A stretch of DNA of 64,000 nt, taken from IMG/VR virus record IMGVR_UViG_3300032289_001838, positions 1 through 64,000 of that record; one strand, 5' to 3'. The first letter of the stretch is position 1. Each line of letters starts with the position of its first letter. The DNA is from a virus. Positions 7,365-15,813 of the stretch are shown here, one piece after another. Position numbers and translations under genes: made by a program. Under the pieces are notes generated by a model. The model made no database searches. It worked only from the letters and a program-made list of their open reading frames with translations, and was not told the origin of the DNA.

Positions 7365-7372
7365 TATTTATA
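7365..7372 (+). promoter_or_regulatory. TATTTATA element 4 nt before the lipoprotein gene
   Basis: TATTTATA on the plus strand ends four bases before the ATG at 7377, matching the spacing seen on minus-strand genes. The element therefore follows gene direction and is not a strand-composition effect. Proposed late promoter for the plus-strand island. Confidence 0.45.
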
Positions 7373-7376
7373 TTAT

Positions 7377-8342
7377 ATGAACTACAAAAATCAACTTTTT
7401 TATTCCATCGTAATATTAATACTAACCGGTTGTATTTCCTCCGAAGTTAAATCCGCAAAACAAGTTACAGTGGCACAAGATGCGGTTGCTAAACAAGAAG
7501 CCAAATTAGACGATACAATGGTTGAATTGGAAAAAATAGAAAAAGGCAAACGAGTGCAAACATCGTCTTTATCTATAGGTATTCAACACTCTTTGAGTCA
7601 AGTAACAAATGCACCGGTACAAGTTGATACTGCTAAATCATTAAATGAACGTGTCATTTCTATAGTGGGTTCTCCGCATATAGATGAAATCAAACGTATC
7701 AAAGCTACCGTTGATTTATTGAATAGTCAAGTTGCTGAAGAAAGAAAGAAAGGCGATCAGTTGTTATCACAACGTGATGAAATTATAAATAAATTGCAAA
7801 AAGAAAAGTCTGCTTTAAAAGAAAGGTATGATGATGAACTCTGGCAAATGACCGATAAAGCAAAAGAAATTGCAAAAGAAGCAGATCAAAGCAAAGCTAC
7901 TCTTGATGCTATGAGTGGTATGTTTGGTCTTAACGCTGTATTTTGGGGATTAAAGAAGTTCTTTATTAGTGCAATGACCGCAATTATTATATTTGTTGTT
8001 GTATTCGTTTTGTTAAGAATATTGGCAAGTGTACATCCAGCAGCGGGTGCAGCATTTAGTATATTCAATATGATTGGTTCTGGATTATTAAGTTTGGTTA
8101 AAGCATTAACACCAAAAGCATTTGAATTGGCTAATTTTACTTCAAAAGACAAAGTTGATGAATTCAAGTCTCCACTTGTTAAAATAGTTGATGTAATTCA
8201 AGAACTAAAAGAAAAACAAAAAGAATCCCCAGACAAAATATATCCATTGAATGATGTATTGAAAAGATTTGATAAAGAAATGGATAGTTCTGAAAAAGAA
8301 TTGATTGATGATATTTTAAAAGAACAAAAATGGATTAAATAA
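7377..8342 (+). CDS. Envelope lipoprotein with coiled coil and membrane helices
   Basis: The N-terminus is a short lipoprotein signal: a hydrophobic stretch, then the lipobox LTGC with Cys at residue 19. Residues about 25-65 and 95-170 are charged and heptad-like (coiled coil). A strong membrane helix follows at about 195-217 (IIIFVVVFVLLRIL), with a second hydrophobic stretch at about 222-242 and a charged 80-residue tail. A lipid anchor plus a distal membrane helix resembles single-protein spanins, which bridge outer and inner membranes, but 321 residues is much longer than the classical example. It is the first gene of a same-strand group with an MscS-like protein and a cyclase, suggesting an envelope sensor or anchor. 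No family was recognised. Confidence 0.6.
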   Translation: MNYKNQLFYSIVILILTGCISSEVKSAKQVTVAQDAVAKQEAKLDDTMVELEKIEKGKRVQTSSLSIGIQHSLSQVTNAPVQVDTAKSLNERVISIVGSPHIDEIKRIKATVDLLNSQVAEERKKGDQLLSQRDEIINKLQKEKSALKERYDDELWQMTDKAKEIAKEADQSKATLDAMSGMFGLNAVFWGLKKFFISAMTAIIIFVVVFVLLRILASVHPAAGAAFSIFNMIGSGLLSLVKALTPKAFELANFTSKDKVDEFKSPLVKIVDVIQELKEKQKESPDKIYPLNDVLKRFDKEMDSSEKELIDDILKEQKWIK

Positions 8343-8417
8343 ATTAATATTAATATTTATTATATAATTGTTTTAGATTGTTAACTAGTGTTATGTGTTA
8401 ATAAACTAAATACGATT

Positions 8418-8795
8418 ATGGATACAAATACAGCACACGTAATATCTCAACAGGTACTAGAATCAACCGCACAAGATATGACAGGCAAATATGTCTGGAT
8501 GTTTGTAGCGGGGTTAGTAATTTTGATATTTAAATCAAGCATTGAAAAGTTAGCATCAGCGCTTTTCATGTTTATCGGAAGTGATTATAAAGAAGATGAC
8601 GTTGTATACATCGATGGTAAACCCGGCAGAATTGTACGCGTGGGTTTAACTAAAACAGTTTTTTTCATATATGATATAGTAGACGGTAAAGTTGCAGGTG
8701 GTAGTAAATTAGTTATTCAAAATGAAAGATTAGCAAGTCTAAATATAGAGAAACCTCTGCCCCAATTAGATTTGTCTCGTTTCAAAAAAGACTAA
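8418..8795 (+). CDS. Mini MscS-like membrane protein (one helix plus beta domain)
   Basis: This 125-residue protein (start ATG 8418; an in-frame GTG at 8388 would add 10 residues) has one hydrophobic helix (YVWMFVAGLVILIF), then an amphipathic segment. Next comes EDDVVYIDGKPGRIVRVGL and, after a short loop, VIQNERLASL. This pattern corresponds to the pore-proximal helix and beta domain of small mechanosensitive channels (MscS), including the Gly-x-x-Gly turn and the Ile-x-Asn strand. Full MscS has three helices and a larger C-terminal domain, so this is a stripped version that may form an oligomer or modify a host channel. It has no cyclic-nucleotide-binding domain, although the next gene is a cyclase. 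It ends 15 bases before that gene. Confidence 0.6.
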   Translation: MDTNTAHVISQQVLESTAQDMTGKYVWMFVAGLVILIFKSSIEKLASALFMFIGSDYKEDDVVYIDGKPGRIVRVGLTKTVFFIYDIVDGKVAGGSKLVIQNERLASLNIEKPLPQLDLSRFKKD

Positions 8796-8810
8796 TATAC
8801 TAATTAAACC

Positions 8811-10589
8811 ATGGCTATTAACATTTTTACCCACATTAGAAGAGGTCTATACGATAACGTCTGCAACTGTATAGAAAAAGAAAAAGTAGATGTCAATCAA
8901 AGAGATGATGACACTGGCAATCCACCGCTGGTTGTTGCAGTAGAAGAAAATCAAATAGAAATAGTCAGATTACTATTAAATCACGGCGCAGATCCTAATT
9001 GCAAAGATTGGACCAGTAAAAATACCGCATTGGATGTAGCTGAACAAAAAGGTTTCAAACCTATTGCAGAAATATTACAACAACGAGGAGCAAAATATAG
9101 CAGTGGTAGTAGTTTCCATTTGGCTGCAAAAAATGGCGATATCGTTTCTATCGAAGAAATGTTAAACAAAGGTTGTGATATCAATGAAGTTGACGCTGGT
9201 AAAGGTTGGACTGCACTACATTATGCTGTAAATTATGGACAAAAACACTTGGTTGAATATCTGATTATAAGAGGCGCTGATGTTAACAAGAAAGATTTCT
9301 TGGGTAAAAACAATCCTATTGACGTATTATCCAATACCAATAGAGGTGATGTTGTTAAATTGTTGAATAAATACGGTGCTAAATCCGCAGGTGGTACTAG
9401 TATTCATTTCTGTGCGGAAACTGGTGATTTTGAAGGTGTACAATCATTTTTTGATAAAGATGGTAAAGTCAATGGTAGAGACGAAAAGAACGGATGGATG
9501 CCACTACATTACGCCGTTAACGCTAACGATGTTGATATGGTAGAATTTTTGGTACATTTAGGTGCGAATGTTAACGGTGCGGATTTTAAAGGTGAAATTG
9601 CTTCATTAGATTTGGCATTTAAGACGGGTAATGTAGAAATGCAAACATATCTACAATCCAAAGGCGCTTTAAGAAAGAAAAAACACGATATTGGTAGTGG
9701 TGGTGGAAAAGATGTAAACATATACATCACAGATGAAGTTAAAAAGCAAATTGCATTGTTTGTTGAAAAACGCAATCGTGAAGAAGCTGCAATAAAGAAA
9801 CACGAAGAAGAACAAGCAGCAAAAGAACCAAAAAAGAAAGATGTACCAGCAAAGAAAATTAACTGGAAAGATTTCTTGAAACTTAAAGATATTCCAGTGG
9901 TAGAAAAGAAAGAAGAAAAGAAAGTAGAAGTTGTTAAACCTGTCAAACAAGTTGCCAAGAAAGTTGAACAAGTTGATGTAGAAGTCAAATCTGGTAGATT
10001 ACAATTAGACATAGAACAAGAAGGTTACATATTCTTTATGGACATTGTTGCTTATAGCAAGAAAACAACAGATGAACAAAAGAAGGCTTGTAAAGATTTG
10101 GGTACATTGGTTAAGTCTACAATGCAATACAAAACTGCTAATGCTCTTGAAAAGTTAATTATATTACCTACTGGCGACGGTATGGTATTGGGATTCTTTA
10201 CTTATTTAGAAGATGCAATGAATTGTGCTATTGCTATAGCTAAGGCAGTAAAGGATAGACCAGATTTACAAATGAGAATGGGTGTACATTGTGGAACTGT
10301 AATACCAATGGAAGATATTAACGGCAATCTCAATATCAGTGGCGACGGTATCAATTATGCTCAAAGAGTAATGGATGCAGGTGAAACTAATCATTTGTTG
10401 GTTAGTTCAGCCGTAATGTTAAAATATGATAGACCACCATATGTATTAGTGAATGATTTAGGCGATGTGGTTGTAAAACACGGTGTAGTGATGCACTTGT
10501 ATAGTTTACACAGTAGTGACTTTGGCAACAAAGCATTTCCATCAAGCAGAGTAAAAAAAGCAGAACCAACAACAAATAAACCAGTATGA
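8811..10589 (+). CDS. Ankyrin-repeat class III nucleotidyl cyclase
   Basis: Residues about 1-285 are ankyrin repeats, with motifs such as TALHYAVNYGQKHLVEYL and RGADVN, and a variant TSIHFCAETGD. Residues about 290-400 are a Lys/Glu-rich linker. Residues about 404-570 form a class III adenylate/guanylate cyclase domain: the metal-binding Asp residues are in FFMDIVAYS and PTGDGMVLGF, and the Asn and Arg needed for catalysis are in GDGINYAQRVM. All expected catalytic positions appear intact, so the protein probably makes cAMP or cGMP in the cytoplasm, with the ankyrin part binding a protein partner or sensor. Which nucleotide is made cannot be read with confidence. It follows the MscS-like gene by 15 bases and overlaps the next gene by 4. 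I know of no such domain pair in T4-like phages. Confidence 0.85.
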   Translation: MAINIFTHIRRGLYDNVCNCIEKEKVDVNQRDDDTGNPPLVVAVEENQIEIVRLLLNHGADPNCKDWTSKNTALDVAEQKGFKPIAEILQQRGAKYSSGSSFHLAAKNGDIVSIEEMLNKGCDINEVDAGKGWTALHYAVNYGQKHLVEYLIIRGADVNKKDFLGKNNPIDVLSNTNRGDVVKLLNKYGAKSAGGTSIHFCAETGDFEGVQSFFDKDGKVNGRDEKNGWMPLHYAVNANDVDMVEFLVHLGANVNGADFKGEIASLDLAFKTGNVEMQTYLQSKGALRKKKHDIGSGGGKDVNIYITDEVKKQIALFVEKRNREEAAIKKHEEEQAAKEPKKKDVPAKKINWKDFLKLKDIPVVEKKEEKKVEVVKPVKQVAKKVEQVDVEVKSGRLQLDIEQEGYIFFMDIVAYSKKTTDEQKKACKDLGTLVKSTMQYKTANALEKLIILPTGDGMVLGFFTYLEDAMNCAIAIAKAVKDRPDLQMRMGVHCGTVIPMEDINGNLNISGDGINYAQRVMDAGETNHLLVSSAVMLKYDRPPYVLVNDLGDVVVKHGVVMHLYSLHSSDFGNKAFPSSRVKKAEPTTNKPV

Positions 10590-10798
10590 GAGTAATGCCT
10601 TTGGTAAGACAATATCATCCAAGTATTGTTAACACAGATTTGGATGTATATAAGATAAAAGATAGAGTAATGGCTGCGCCTATAAATAATCATCCAGATC
10701 CATATCAGATAATTGATAGACTTGGTATAAATCAAATTAACCCTACTAAGATAAAAACAGTGGTTTATAATTCCAAGGGTCTTTTTTACATAATATAA
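10586..10798 (+). CDS. Small protein translationally coupled to the cyclase
   Basis: A 70-residue frame starts at an ATG overlapping the cyclase stop codon by four bases, the usual sign of coupled translation. It contains two similar short segments, IKDRVMAAPINNHPDPYQII and then DRLGINQINPTKIK, and has no signal peptide, membrane helix or known motif. It may be a small regulator or partner of the cyclase; no function is assigned. Confidence 0.5.
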   Translation: MRVMPLVRQYHPSIVNTDLDVYKIKDRVMAAPINNHPDPYQIIDRLGINQINPTKIKTVVYNSKGLFYII

Positions 10799-10801
10799 AT
10801 C

Positions 10802-10829
10802 TTGACAGGTAGAGTTATATTGTTATAAT
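10802..10829 (+). promoter_or_regulatory. Consensus sigma-70 promoter for the Mom-like gene
   Basis: TTGACA at 10802-10807 and TATAAT at 10824-10829 are perfect consensus hexamers separated by 16 bases. The expected start point, about seven bases after the -10, falls on the A of the ATG at 10836, so the message should be leaderless. This is the only full host-type consensus promoter I noticed in the window. It suggests early expression of the gene by unmodified host polymerase. Confidence 0.75.
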
Positions 10830-10835
10830 GAAATA

Positions 10836-11609
10836 ATGTCGGAGTATTTTGACCCTACATTAATTTACCTCAAAAGTATCAATAAGAATGTTGCAAAAAC
10901 TCTTATTGAAAAGAACCATTATACACACAAGTGGTCTCTTTGTACTGTAGCTTATGGAGTATACTATAAAGAATATGTAGAGAGCACATTCTTTGGTGGT
11001 TTTAACGAACGATTAATAGGTGTATTAGTATATGGAAACGCCGTGGGTAGAAATGCAAGTACCAGCATATCTCCACTACTTACTAATGATAATGTGTTGG
11101 AATTAACAAGATTGTGGATAGCAGATGGATATGGTAAGAATATAGAAAGTTATTGTATAGCTGAAAGTTTTAGATTATTAAATACTGAATATCCCCACAT
11201 CAAATGTATTCTTAGTTATGCGGACAGTGAAGCTGGACACGCTGGAACAATATATCAAGCAACTGGCTTTCTATATCAAGGAGATAACTATGTAGATATC
11301 GCTATAATGCCTAACTATAGTGTTAGTTTAATTGGTCCGAATCAATATGAGTGGATACATAGCAGAAGTGTATATTCAAGATGGAAAACACACAGCGTAG
11401 ATAAACTAAAAGAACGTATTGGTAGAACGTTTTGGCGCAAACGTGAAAGCGGTAAACATCGTTACGTCAAGTTTATAAGCAACAAGATTGAAAATAAGAA
11501 ACTGGTTAAATCTCTTAAACATAAAGTTCTACCTTACCCCAAAGATACTTCGTTCAAAGAAGAAGTGCAAGAAATAGTTGTAGATTCTACCAACCAATTT
11601 TTTGAATAA
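10836..11609 (+). CDS. Mom-like GNAT-fold DNA modification protein
   Basis: This 257-residue protein has the landmarks of the Mom family: NHYTHKWSLCTVAYGVYY near residue 25, RLIGVLVYGNAVGR, then VLELTRLWIADGYGKN and ILSYADSEAGHAGTIYQATG near residue 126. In phage Mu, Mom converts adenine in DNA to N6-carbamoylmethyladenine, which blocks host restriction enzymes. A similar anti-restriction role is likely here. The gene has its own consensus host promoter and a strong terminator just after its stop. It is therefore a separate early unit, not part of the cyclase operon. Other GNAT-like phage proteins share some motifs, so the exact chemistry is uncertain. Confidence 0.65.
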   Translation: MSEYFDPTLIYLKSINKNVAKTLIEKNHYTHKWSLCTVAYGVYYKEYVESTFFGGFNERLIGVLVYGNAVGRNASTSISPLLTNDNVLELTRLWIADGYGKNIESYCIAESFRLLNTEYPHIKCILSYADSEAGHAGTIYQATGFLYQGDNYVDIAIMPNYSVSLIGPNQYEWIHSRSVYSRWKTHSVDKLKERIGRTFWRKRESGKHRYVKFISNKIENKKLVKSLKHKVLPYPKDTSFKEEVQEIVVDSTNQFFE

Positions 11610-11616
11610 TGCAAGA

Positions 11617-11644
11617 AAAAACCCCAACTTTCGTTGGGGTTTTT
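11617..11644. terminator. Bidirectional intrinsic terminator between convergent genes
   Basis: A 12-base-pair perfect stem (AAAAACCCCAAC / GTTGGGGTTTTT) with a TTTC loop lies between the plus-strand Mom-like stop (11609) and the minus-strand capsid stop (11669). The A-run and T-run let it act on both strands. Confidence 0.85.
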
Positions 11645-14747: not shown

Positions 14748-15341
14748 ATGCCTGCAAAAAGTGAAAAACAAGCAAGACTTTTTAGACTAGTAAGAGCTCT
14801 ACAAAAAGGTAGAGTTAAACAAAAAGAAGTTTCCCCACAAGTTCGTAAAATGGCACGTACTATTAAACCAAGTAGTATAAAGCATTTTACTAAAGTGAAA
14901 GAAATTATTCAAAGACTAAAAGAAAGTGAATATAGCTTGAGTAAAATTAAAAAAGTTAGTGGTATAAGTTTTAAAAAGCATTTGTCTAAACAAGTTGGAG
15001 TACCATTTGATTTGAAAGAATTGCAAGTATTTCAAACCAAAGAAAATGGATTCAGCGGATTTGGAAAAACAAAATTTAAAGAAAATAAAAGTACCAATGA
15101 AATTTCTACTGAAATCAATAGTAACGGTACCAATAAAAAATATGTTTTTAAAAAGTTGGTAGACAACGAAGATAAACAACATAAATACGCTTGTATTATT
15201 CAACGAACATTTCCAGATAAACCAGACAAAGAAATATTAGATCTACTAAGTAACAGTTTTGACAATGAAAATCTTGCAGAAAAAACTAAAACACTAGCCG
15301 ATTTTATCGACAGAATTAATACAACATTAGGATCAATGTAA
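14748..15341 (+). CDS. DUF3008-like small basic protein
   Basis: The N-terminus MPAKSEKQARLFRLVRALQK, followed by a helix and a MARTIKPSSIKHFTKVK segment, resembles the DUF3008 type of small phage proteins (MPAKSxxQ start, then a short helical pair). The rest of the 197 residues is Lys-rich and alpha-helical, with no catalytic motif visible. It is on the plus strand between minus-strand scaffold and prohead genes, with another small gene four bases downstream. A nucleic-acid-binding or head-associated role would fit the charge but is not shown. Confidence 0.5.
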   Translation: MPAKSEKQARLFRLVRALQKGRVKQKEVSPQVRKMARTIKPSSIKHFTKVKEIIQRLKESEYSLSKIKKVSGISFKKHLSKQVGVPFDLKELQVFQTKENGFSGFGKTKFKENKSTNEISTEINSNGTNKKYVFKKLVDNEDKQHKYACIIQRTFPDKPDKEILDLLSNSFDNENLAEKTKTLADFIDRINTTLGSM

Positions 15342-15345
15342 TATT

Positions 15346-15813
15346 ATGCCATATAATTTCAATCCAAATTTTAACAGACACATAAATCAACCCAAGGATA
15401 ATTACAAAAATATCAAAAGAAAGGGTGATGAGAATCCATATTCTAACCCAGACGTTCGTGCGATGAATAATAATTATAACAACCACAAAAGTCCAAAGTT
15501 GATTAATTTTTTAAACAACGATAACTTTGAGGAAGATATTAAAATATATAAGTTGGAAGATTTGGATCATCCAAATGGATGGAACTTTTCAGAGTTGGAT
15601 ATGTTAGGCGAAATGAATTTCAGAATCGATGATGACTATAAAATGTTTTCTGAAATTGAAATTCCAGCTTTACAATTGGAAAATGAAAAAGTAAAAGCCT
15701 TCGTCTATAAAACTGACGAAGGATATGTTTTGGAAACTAATAGAAGATACGTATTTGAAACGTTCAATAAAATGTTAGAATATATCGATTCTATTCCAAT
15801 GAATCGATACTAA
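15346..15813 (+). CDS. Hypothetical protein of the plus-strand head island
   Basis: This 155-residue frame begins four bases after the DUF3008-like gene, so the two are probably one operon. The N-terminal 50 residues are Asn- and Lys-rich and probably disordered. The C-terminal part (about residues 55-150) looks like a small alpha/beta domain with VYKTDEGYVLETNRRYVFET. No family was recognised. It ends one base before the convergent gene at 15815, leaving no room for a terminator between the two stop codons. Confidence 0.5.
   Translation: MPYNFNPNFNRHINQPKDNYKNIKRKGDENPYSNPDVRAMNNNYNNHKSPKLINFLNNDNFEEDIKIYKLEDLDHPNGWNFSELDMLGEMNFRIDDDYKMFSEIEIPALQLENEKVKAFVYKTDEGYVLETNRRYVFETFNKMLEYIDSIPMNRY

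Follow-up and report, generated by a model that had tools for sequence, protein, structure and literature searches.

An MscS-domain protein paired with an ankyrin cyclase in two groups of uncultured phages suggests a membrane-linked second-messenger switch

Why would a T4-like phage carry a nucleotidyl cyclase and an MscS-like membrane protein side by side, on the strand opposite to its virion genes? The question is raised by IMG/VR record IMGVR_UViG_3300032289_001838, an 81.6-kb virus record whose T4-type major capsid protein (Gp23) marks it as a fragment of a T4-like phage. Positions 1 to 64,000 of this record make up the window analyzed here, and coordinates given without a contig label refer to it. 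In the window, a plus-strand run of genes is flanked on both sides by minus-strand virion genes. The run comprises a predicted lipoprotein (LIPO, 7377 to 8342), a protein with one transmembrane helix and an MscS-type beta domain (MSCS, 8418 to 8795), a protein that joins ankyrin repeats, through a charged linker, to a class III nucleotidyl cyclase domain at its C terminus (CYC, 8811 to 10589), a protein of 70 amino acids (aa) (SMALL, 10586 to 10798), and a Mom-family gene. A preliminary description, made from the sequence of the window, had read the first four as a possible signaling unit, and the four open reading frames are indeed found at the place and on the strand that it gave. LIPO and MSCS are separated by 75 nucleotides (nt) and MSCS and CYC by 15 nt, while the start of SMALL overlaps the end of CYC by 4 nt (ATGA), in agreement with the view of a small protein coupled to the cyclase. 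We find MSCS and CYC together in two unrelated groups of uncultured phages, which suggests a membrane-linked second-messenger switch.

The pairing is firmly kept among freshwater relatives. MSCS lies upstream of CYC at 55 of 55 freshwater IMG/VR loci with enough upstream sequence, usually with a gap of 4 to 27 nt. All but one of 55 complete CYC frames are intact (54/55), and the three catalytic motifs are present in all 55; LIPO is present at 47 of 49 IMG/VR loci. Many of these contigs represent near-identical populations, and grouping by exact shared stretches reduces them to about a dozen separate freshwater arrangements. The median ratio of nonsynonymous to synonymous substitutions (dN/dS) was 0.049 for the ankyrin part of CYC, 0.048 for its catalytic part, and 0.052 for MSCS, compared with 0.135 for the CYC linker, 0.09 to 0.12 for LIPO, and 0.152 for SMALL. 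CYC and MSCS are thus under strong purifying selection, and the island is not a chance neighborhood. The preliminary description had itself named a neighborhood conserved in no related phage as grounds for abandoning its proposal; given the constant order of MSCS and CYC, this objection fails.

The boundaries of the unit are narrower than first proposed. In a set of 19 virus records, picked from earlier scans and so not a random sample, no cyclase occurred without MSCS, two marine records had MSCS only, and records bearing LIPO without MSCS were also without the cyclase. LIPO is found in many phages that have neither MSCS nor CYC. One contig has MSCS-CYC-SMALL and, at a different position, a copy of LIPO (loci L120 and L178). 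Empty sites, at which LIPO is directly followed by Mom, occur in some close relatives (L132, L479, and L480), and SMALL is missing from cassettes in which other genes come after CYC or MSCS. The four-gene unit therefore holds for MSCS and CYC, with or without SMALL, as a tight group, but not for LIPO, a loosely associated accessory gene; MSCS, too, can occur by itself.

The second group of carriers is marine. Contig L209, filed as marine "Flavobacteriales," was considered as a bacterial locus and ruled out as such, as its virion genes show it to be a phage: it encodes a terminase (phrog_2, PF03237), a lambda-J-type tail tip (phrog_31, E = 1.9e-129), a tape measure protein (PF10145), and PhoH. 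On opposite strands of this contig, ~2 kb apart, lie an ankyrin cyclase whose catalytic part is 45% identical and a homologue of MSCS (33 to 36%). Cyclases of the same type were found at 17 further marine virus loci, and MSCS in 9 of the 16 marine records that were searched whole and also in L493. In L501, MSCS is followed directly by CYC on the same strand after an 11-nt gap. These marine tailed phages with lambda-J-type tail tips are a distant lineage, unrelated to the T4-like carriers. Two further contigs of interest have two divergent MSCS paralogues back to back (L495:5597-6410 and L497:4842-5656).

The strongest argument as to what the pair may do comes from a locus at which the cyclase has been exchanged. 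In L187, LIPO (66% identical) and Mom (95%) flank an MSCS gene (97%) with nearly the same upstream gap, and CYC-SMALL has given way to genes for an outer-membrane-like protein of 215 aa, a class III membrane cyclase (adenylate cyclase family PF00211, E = 6.6e-27), and an HD-like hydrolase (the labels "outer-membrane-like," "XhlA-like," and "HD-like" are drawn here and below from sub-threshold matches or sequence pattern). The membrane cyclases of L187 and L119 possess the canonical adenylate determinants Lys and Thr, and L119 and L039 carry both cyclases. Since the cyclase is swapped while MSCS is kept, the exchange argues for cyclic-nucleotide production as the predicted output that these cassettes share and conserve.

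Other variants of the cassette carry additional genes. Between MSCS and CYC, L172 and L122 have a gene of a holin family (phrog_2359, E = 1.4e-11) along with another membrane protein, a PAS protein comes after CYC in L177 and L394, and still other variants add an XhlA-like protein or outer-membrane-like proteins. The presence of envelope, holin-family, PAS, and second-cyclase genes at this locus in relatives fits a role in membrane signaling. A predicted secreted, outer-membrane-like protein is also encoded elsewhere in the record of this phage, at L413:17444-18154 (record positions 79443-80153, outside the window), and is 46% identical to one that adjoins the cassette in more distant relatives.

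How far does the sequence of CYC agree with a working enzyme? The ankyrin-repeat part covers approximately residues 1 to 292 (8811 to 9686, from the Pfam ankyrin stretches; Ank_2, E = 3.6e-41), and the catalytic domain covers approximately residues 397 to 575 (9999 to 10535), as placed by a PF00211 match at residues 479 to 567 and by alignment of orthologues. The PF00211 match scores 22.4 bits in the protein scan, against a cutoff of 21.9, and also exceeds the cutoff in the genome search. The metal-binding residues Asp411 (in FFMDIV, 10041 to 10043) and Asp456 (in LPTGDG, 10176 to 10178) and the transition-state residues Asn515 and Arg519 (in GINYAQR, 10353 to 10367) are unchanged in all phage relatives examined. 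The positions that specify the substrate differ: Leu452 stands where adenylate cyclases have Lys, and Asn508 where they have Asp or Thr, so CYC lacks the residues of a canonical class III adenylate cyclase. The catalytic residues, described earlier as intact, are thus intact for metal binding and the transition state but not for substrate choice. As a consequence, cyclic AMP (cAMP) cannot be assumed, and neither cAMP nor cyclic GMP can be derived as the product from these residues.

Bacterial and archaeal class III cyclases related to CYC likewise have Leu/Asn at these positions, which points to a stable subfamily rather than to decay, although the count of Leu among these relatives is partly a product of a search pattern that itself contained Leu; the count of Asn is not. 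These relatives, from Verrucomicrobia, Acidobacteria, and Thaumarchaeota, share the motifs LPTGDGM and GINxAQRVMD and belong to the same catalytic subfamily as CYC. Those that we read have other architectures, such as the long C-terminal repeat-rich regions of L211 and L213, and fusion to ankyrin repeats was seen only in the phages and in one bacterial orthologue (L207, below). Unlike CYC, the thaumarchaeal members are without the transition-state Asn. With strong purifying selection and the metal and transition-state residues retained, the objection of an inactive cyclase domain also falls, as far as can be read from sequence, and CYC probably makes a cyclic nucleotide signal.

The assignment of MSCS rests on its relatives as much as on the protein in the window. 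Its likeliest start is the ATG at 8418; an upstream GTG at 8388 could also serve, but the alignment with homologues begins at the ATG. In the 125-aa product, a single hydrophobic helix is combined with a small beta barrel, and the chain ends soon after the beta domain. Against PF00924 it scores below the Pfam cutoff (16 versus 20.2 bits, E = 0.013), whereas the divergent homologue in L209 is above it (29.3 bits, E = 9.5e-7). Foldseek searches with the structure model returned solved structures of H. pylori MscS, AtMSL10, and E. coli MscS (best E = 4.3e-3, match probability 1.00); the model itself is of low to modest confidence (mean pLDDT 65), and as ribosomal chains appear in the same list of matches, the fold would be weak evidence if taken by itself. 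Together, these findings uphold the identification of a one-helix MscS-like protein. In known MscS channels, the beta domain forms rings. MSCS, known from sequence and a model, resembles these channels, including E. coli MscS and AtMSL10, in the fold of this domain after a membrane helix, and differs from them in having one helix in place of the three-helix membrane part and in the absence of the C-terminal alpha/beta cage. Lone MSCS homologues (66 to 69% identical) were also seen in a marine T4-like group (L338 to L349) as a single opposite-strand gene adjoining a 95-aa membrane protein, with no cyclase nearby.

When would these genes be expressed? A copy of the element TATTTATA, a late-type promoter candidate, lies on the plus strand at 7365 to 7372, 12 nt before the LIPO start codon. 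The element is common to many virion genes of the record, with copies before start codons at, for example, 4860, 6080, 7365, 16239, 26628, and 63425, and occurs within 30 nt upstream of 14 of 76 gene starts, compared with 0.37 expected; as that expectation comes from genome-wide rather than intergenic density, the reverse complement, with only 4 occurrences, is the better control. Its distance of ~12 nt from start codons may mean that the transcripts are almost leaderless. MSCS, CYC, and SMALL have no TATTTATA at the spacing seen for LIPO, which fits a single operon headed by LIPO. A similar TATTTAT ~60 nt before MSCS, in the gap between LIPO and MSCS, makes a second start possible. The Mom-family DNA modification gene (10836 to 11609), which continues the plus-strand run, has directly before it a perfect extended sigma-70-like promoter (12/12, 10802 to 10829) and after it a strong terminator-like stem-loop (11617 to 11644), and may therefore lie outside the unit. 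Another small island on the plus strand (14748 to 15813, encoding proteins of 197 and 155 aa) also stands amid virion genes, with a TATTTAT-type element 13 nt before its start.

The reading that we tentatively favor, at somewhat less than an even chance, is that MSCS and CYC are a single membrane-coupled nucleotide-signaling module which phages exchange as cargo and which acts late. MSCS, in the inner membrane, would report the state of the membrane to CYC late in infection. CYC would dock through its ankyrin repeats, dimerize through its class III domain, and make a cyclic mononucleotide to be read by a host receptor. Signaling may thus run from MSCS to CYC and serve lysis timing or the tuning of host physiology. 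LIPO and SMALL could be accessory, positioning the module in the envelope or trimming its signal, and the holin-family, outer-membrane-like, PAS, and HD-like hydrolase genes of relatives may be accessory in the same manner. The observations behind this reading are genetic: the linkage and constant order of the two genes, their purifying selection, the intact catalytic core, the exchange of one cyclase for another beside MSCS, and the late-type element before LIPO. Insertion into the membrane, contact between MSCS and CYC, catalysis, and the direction and use of the signal are inferences from them, and the sensing of tension or superinfection put forward in the preliminary description is a conjecture.

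Several observations weigh against this reading. MSCS has neither the cage nor two of the three MscS helices, so channel function or tension sensing cannot be assumed. It occurs alone in the marine T4-like group, and some marine cyclase records, such as the 79-kb L496, are without MSCS; the link between the two is therefore strong and not absolute, and each can occur without the other. CYC has non-canonical residues at the positions that choose the substrate, and its activity is a prediction. Finally, neither the cassette nor the 34 further proteins of the record that were scanned yielded a receptor.

It is also conceivable, although we regard it as fairly unlikely, that the direction is reversed: CYC would sense a protein of a rival phage or of the host via its ankyrin repeats, and its product would open MSCS, so that superinfection is excluded or infection aborted, much as in the pyrimidine cyclase system for antiphage resistance (Pycsar) or the cyclic oligonucleotide-based antiphage signaling system (CBASS). 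In Pycsar, a cyclase is paired with an effector that binds cyclic nucleotides (PMC11224242). A class III-fold cyclase next to a small membrane protein does recall the two-gene layout of PycC with PycTM or PycTIR, cassette exchange at one site and the existence of empty sites are typical of defense cargo, and the lone occurrences of MSCS mean that it may act by itself. However, no cyclic-nucleotide-binding domain was found in MSCS or in the other cassette proteins scanned, from the island or its relatives (Pfam to E = 1), and PADLOC matched no Pycsar or other cyclase defense model, its matches being to ankyrin repeats only. The residues of CYC at the PycC specificity positions also differ from the published ones, and membership in Pycsar was rejected. 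The island is, moreover, phage-borne, and a late-type promoter element fits exclusion early in infection poorly.

A role in lysis itself seems quite unlikely. MSCS would then be a small pore or pore regulator, akin in use to holins, with the cyclic nucleotide delaying or triggering lysis and LIPO serving as a spanin-like linker. The characteristics of LIPO invite this idea. It combines a lipobox, in which Cys19 is invariant, with a long helical region, a strong hydrophobic helix at residues 195 to 213, and a weaker one at residues 223 to 241, which bears out the earlier description of a lipoprotein with membrane helices; an AlphaFold2 model is all helical and of low confidence, no family match exceeded the cutoff, and a fold search gave nothing useful. 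Of a unimolecular spanin one would expect a lipobox, a periplasmic helix, and a C-terminal membrane helix with a short tail; in LIPO, the lipobox and a helix are present, the two hydrophobic segments are followed by ~80 more residues, and there was no match to a spanin family. In addition to the holin-family gene between MSCS and CYC in two cassettes, a TM206-holin pair, the same in L169, L170, and L179, comes after LIPO, and an XhlA-like protein is frequently close by. Most cassettes, including that of the window, nonetheless have no adjoining holin-family gene; in this record, neither a search with the phrog_2359 family nor a family scan covering 34 proteins turned one up. No lysis family matches MSCS or LIPO, the latter is also present in other contexts, and a lysis device can do without a cyclase.

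A phage-borne cyclase cassette has a known counterpart. Pelagiphages and Melnitz phages carry class III cyclases beside curli genes (PMC9599517), and the curli pore has been proposed to act in lysis (PMC9004378). We found the cyclase of Pelagibacter phage HTVC008M (L204) and Methylophilales phage Melnitz (L205) at the end of the curli cluster, opposite tail genes. This type VIII secretion system (T8SS) cassette is similar to the island in combining a phage class III cyclase with a cluster of envelope proteins on the strand opposite to T4-like tail genes. It differs in that its cyclase resembles the L119 membrane cyclase and not CYC, in its curli and FecR partners, and in having no annotated ankyrin or MscS-domain partner. 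Conversely, csgF/csgG, curlin, and FecR genes neither adjoin the island nor occur in the cassettes of its relatives.

Bacterial relatives provide some hints as to origin. A full-length CYC orthologue (69 to 70% identity over 588 to 591 aa; 61% GC) is present at L207:6322-8106, on a GC-rich contig of a Verrucomicrobiales metagenome-assembled genome (MAG), where it comes after kdsB and ligA (gene names read from translations); no MSCS was found in that genome. It is the only such orthologue among 320 genomes of the order, so the gene may just as well have passed from a phage to the bacterium. No other full-length orthologue was found in 388 genomes sampled from the same phylum, and in 396 genomes from the phylum of L209 the sole match was the L209 phage contig itself. 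Two further candidates were set aside. A Bacteroidetes MAG contig (L208) was rejected as evidence of the host, as only its last 318 bases (L208:7143-7460) match the phage cyclase gene (~95 to 96% identical), and this end of the contig is probably chimeric; L206, filed as Acinetobacter phage MD-2021a, was rejected as evidence from a phage, as its surrounding housekeeping genes make it look bacterial. The host hints conflict, with the capsid protein nearest to those of Microcystis and Flavobacterium phages and the cyclase relatives in Verrucomicrobia. That CYC is a captured bacterial signaling enzyme which reprograms the host as an auxiliary gene by raising a cyclic nucleotide, with MSCS a separate membrane gene that happens to travel along, is to us the least probable account: the L207 genome without MSCS and the cyclases beside phage curli genes speak for it, but the orthologue was present in just one of the 320 genomes of the order and its transfer may have run either way, and MSCS is found with CYC in two phage lineages unrelated to each other and is retained where the cyclase has changed.

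What is then new here? A phage-borne cyclase cassette is of a known kind, and what appears to be new is the pairing of an MscS-domain protein with an ankyrin cyclase. The preliminary description knew of no such combination in phages, and this stands: none of LIPO, MSCS, or the CYC catalytic domain was found in the collection of cultured phages that we searched. Full-length CYC matched proteins of that collection only through its ankyrin repeats, mostly in Wolbachia phage WO, and no pair of an MscS-domain protein and an ankyrin cyclase was described in the partial library of literature searched. A wholly new system is the upper reading. It would be a new class of phage signaling, in which an MscS-domain protein and an exchangeable ankyrin class III cyclase, possibly with a product other than cAMP, read the envelope late in infection to set lysis or host physiology; we consider this possible but doubtful.

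Phages are known that destroy cyclic nucleotides or sponge them up, and pelagiphages carry adenylate cyclases. If the module proposed here is real, phages would also build second-messenger circuits of their own, as indicated by a pair that is found in two lineages and in which the cyclase can be replaced. CYC would in addition open the product of the widespread Leu/Asn subfamily of class III cyclases to testing.

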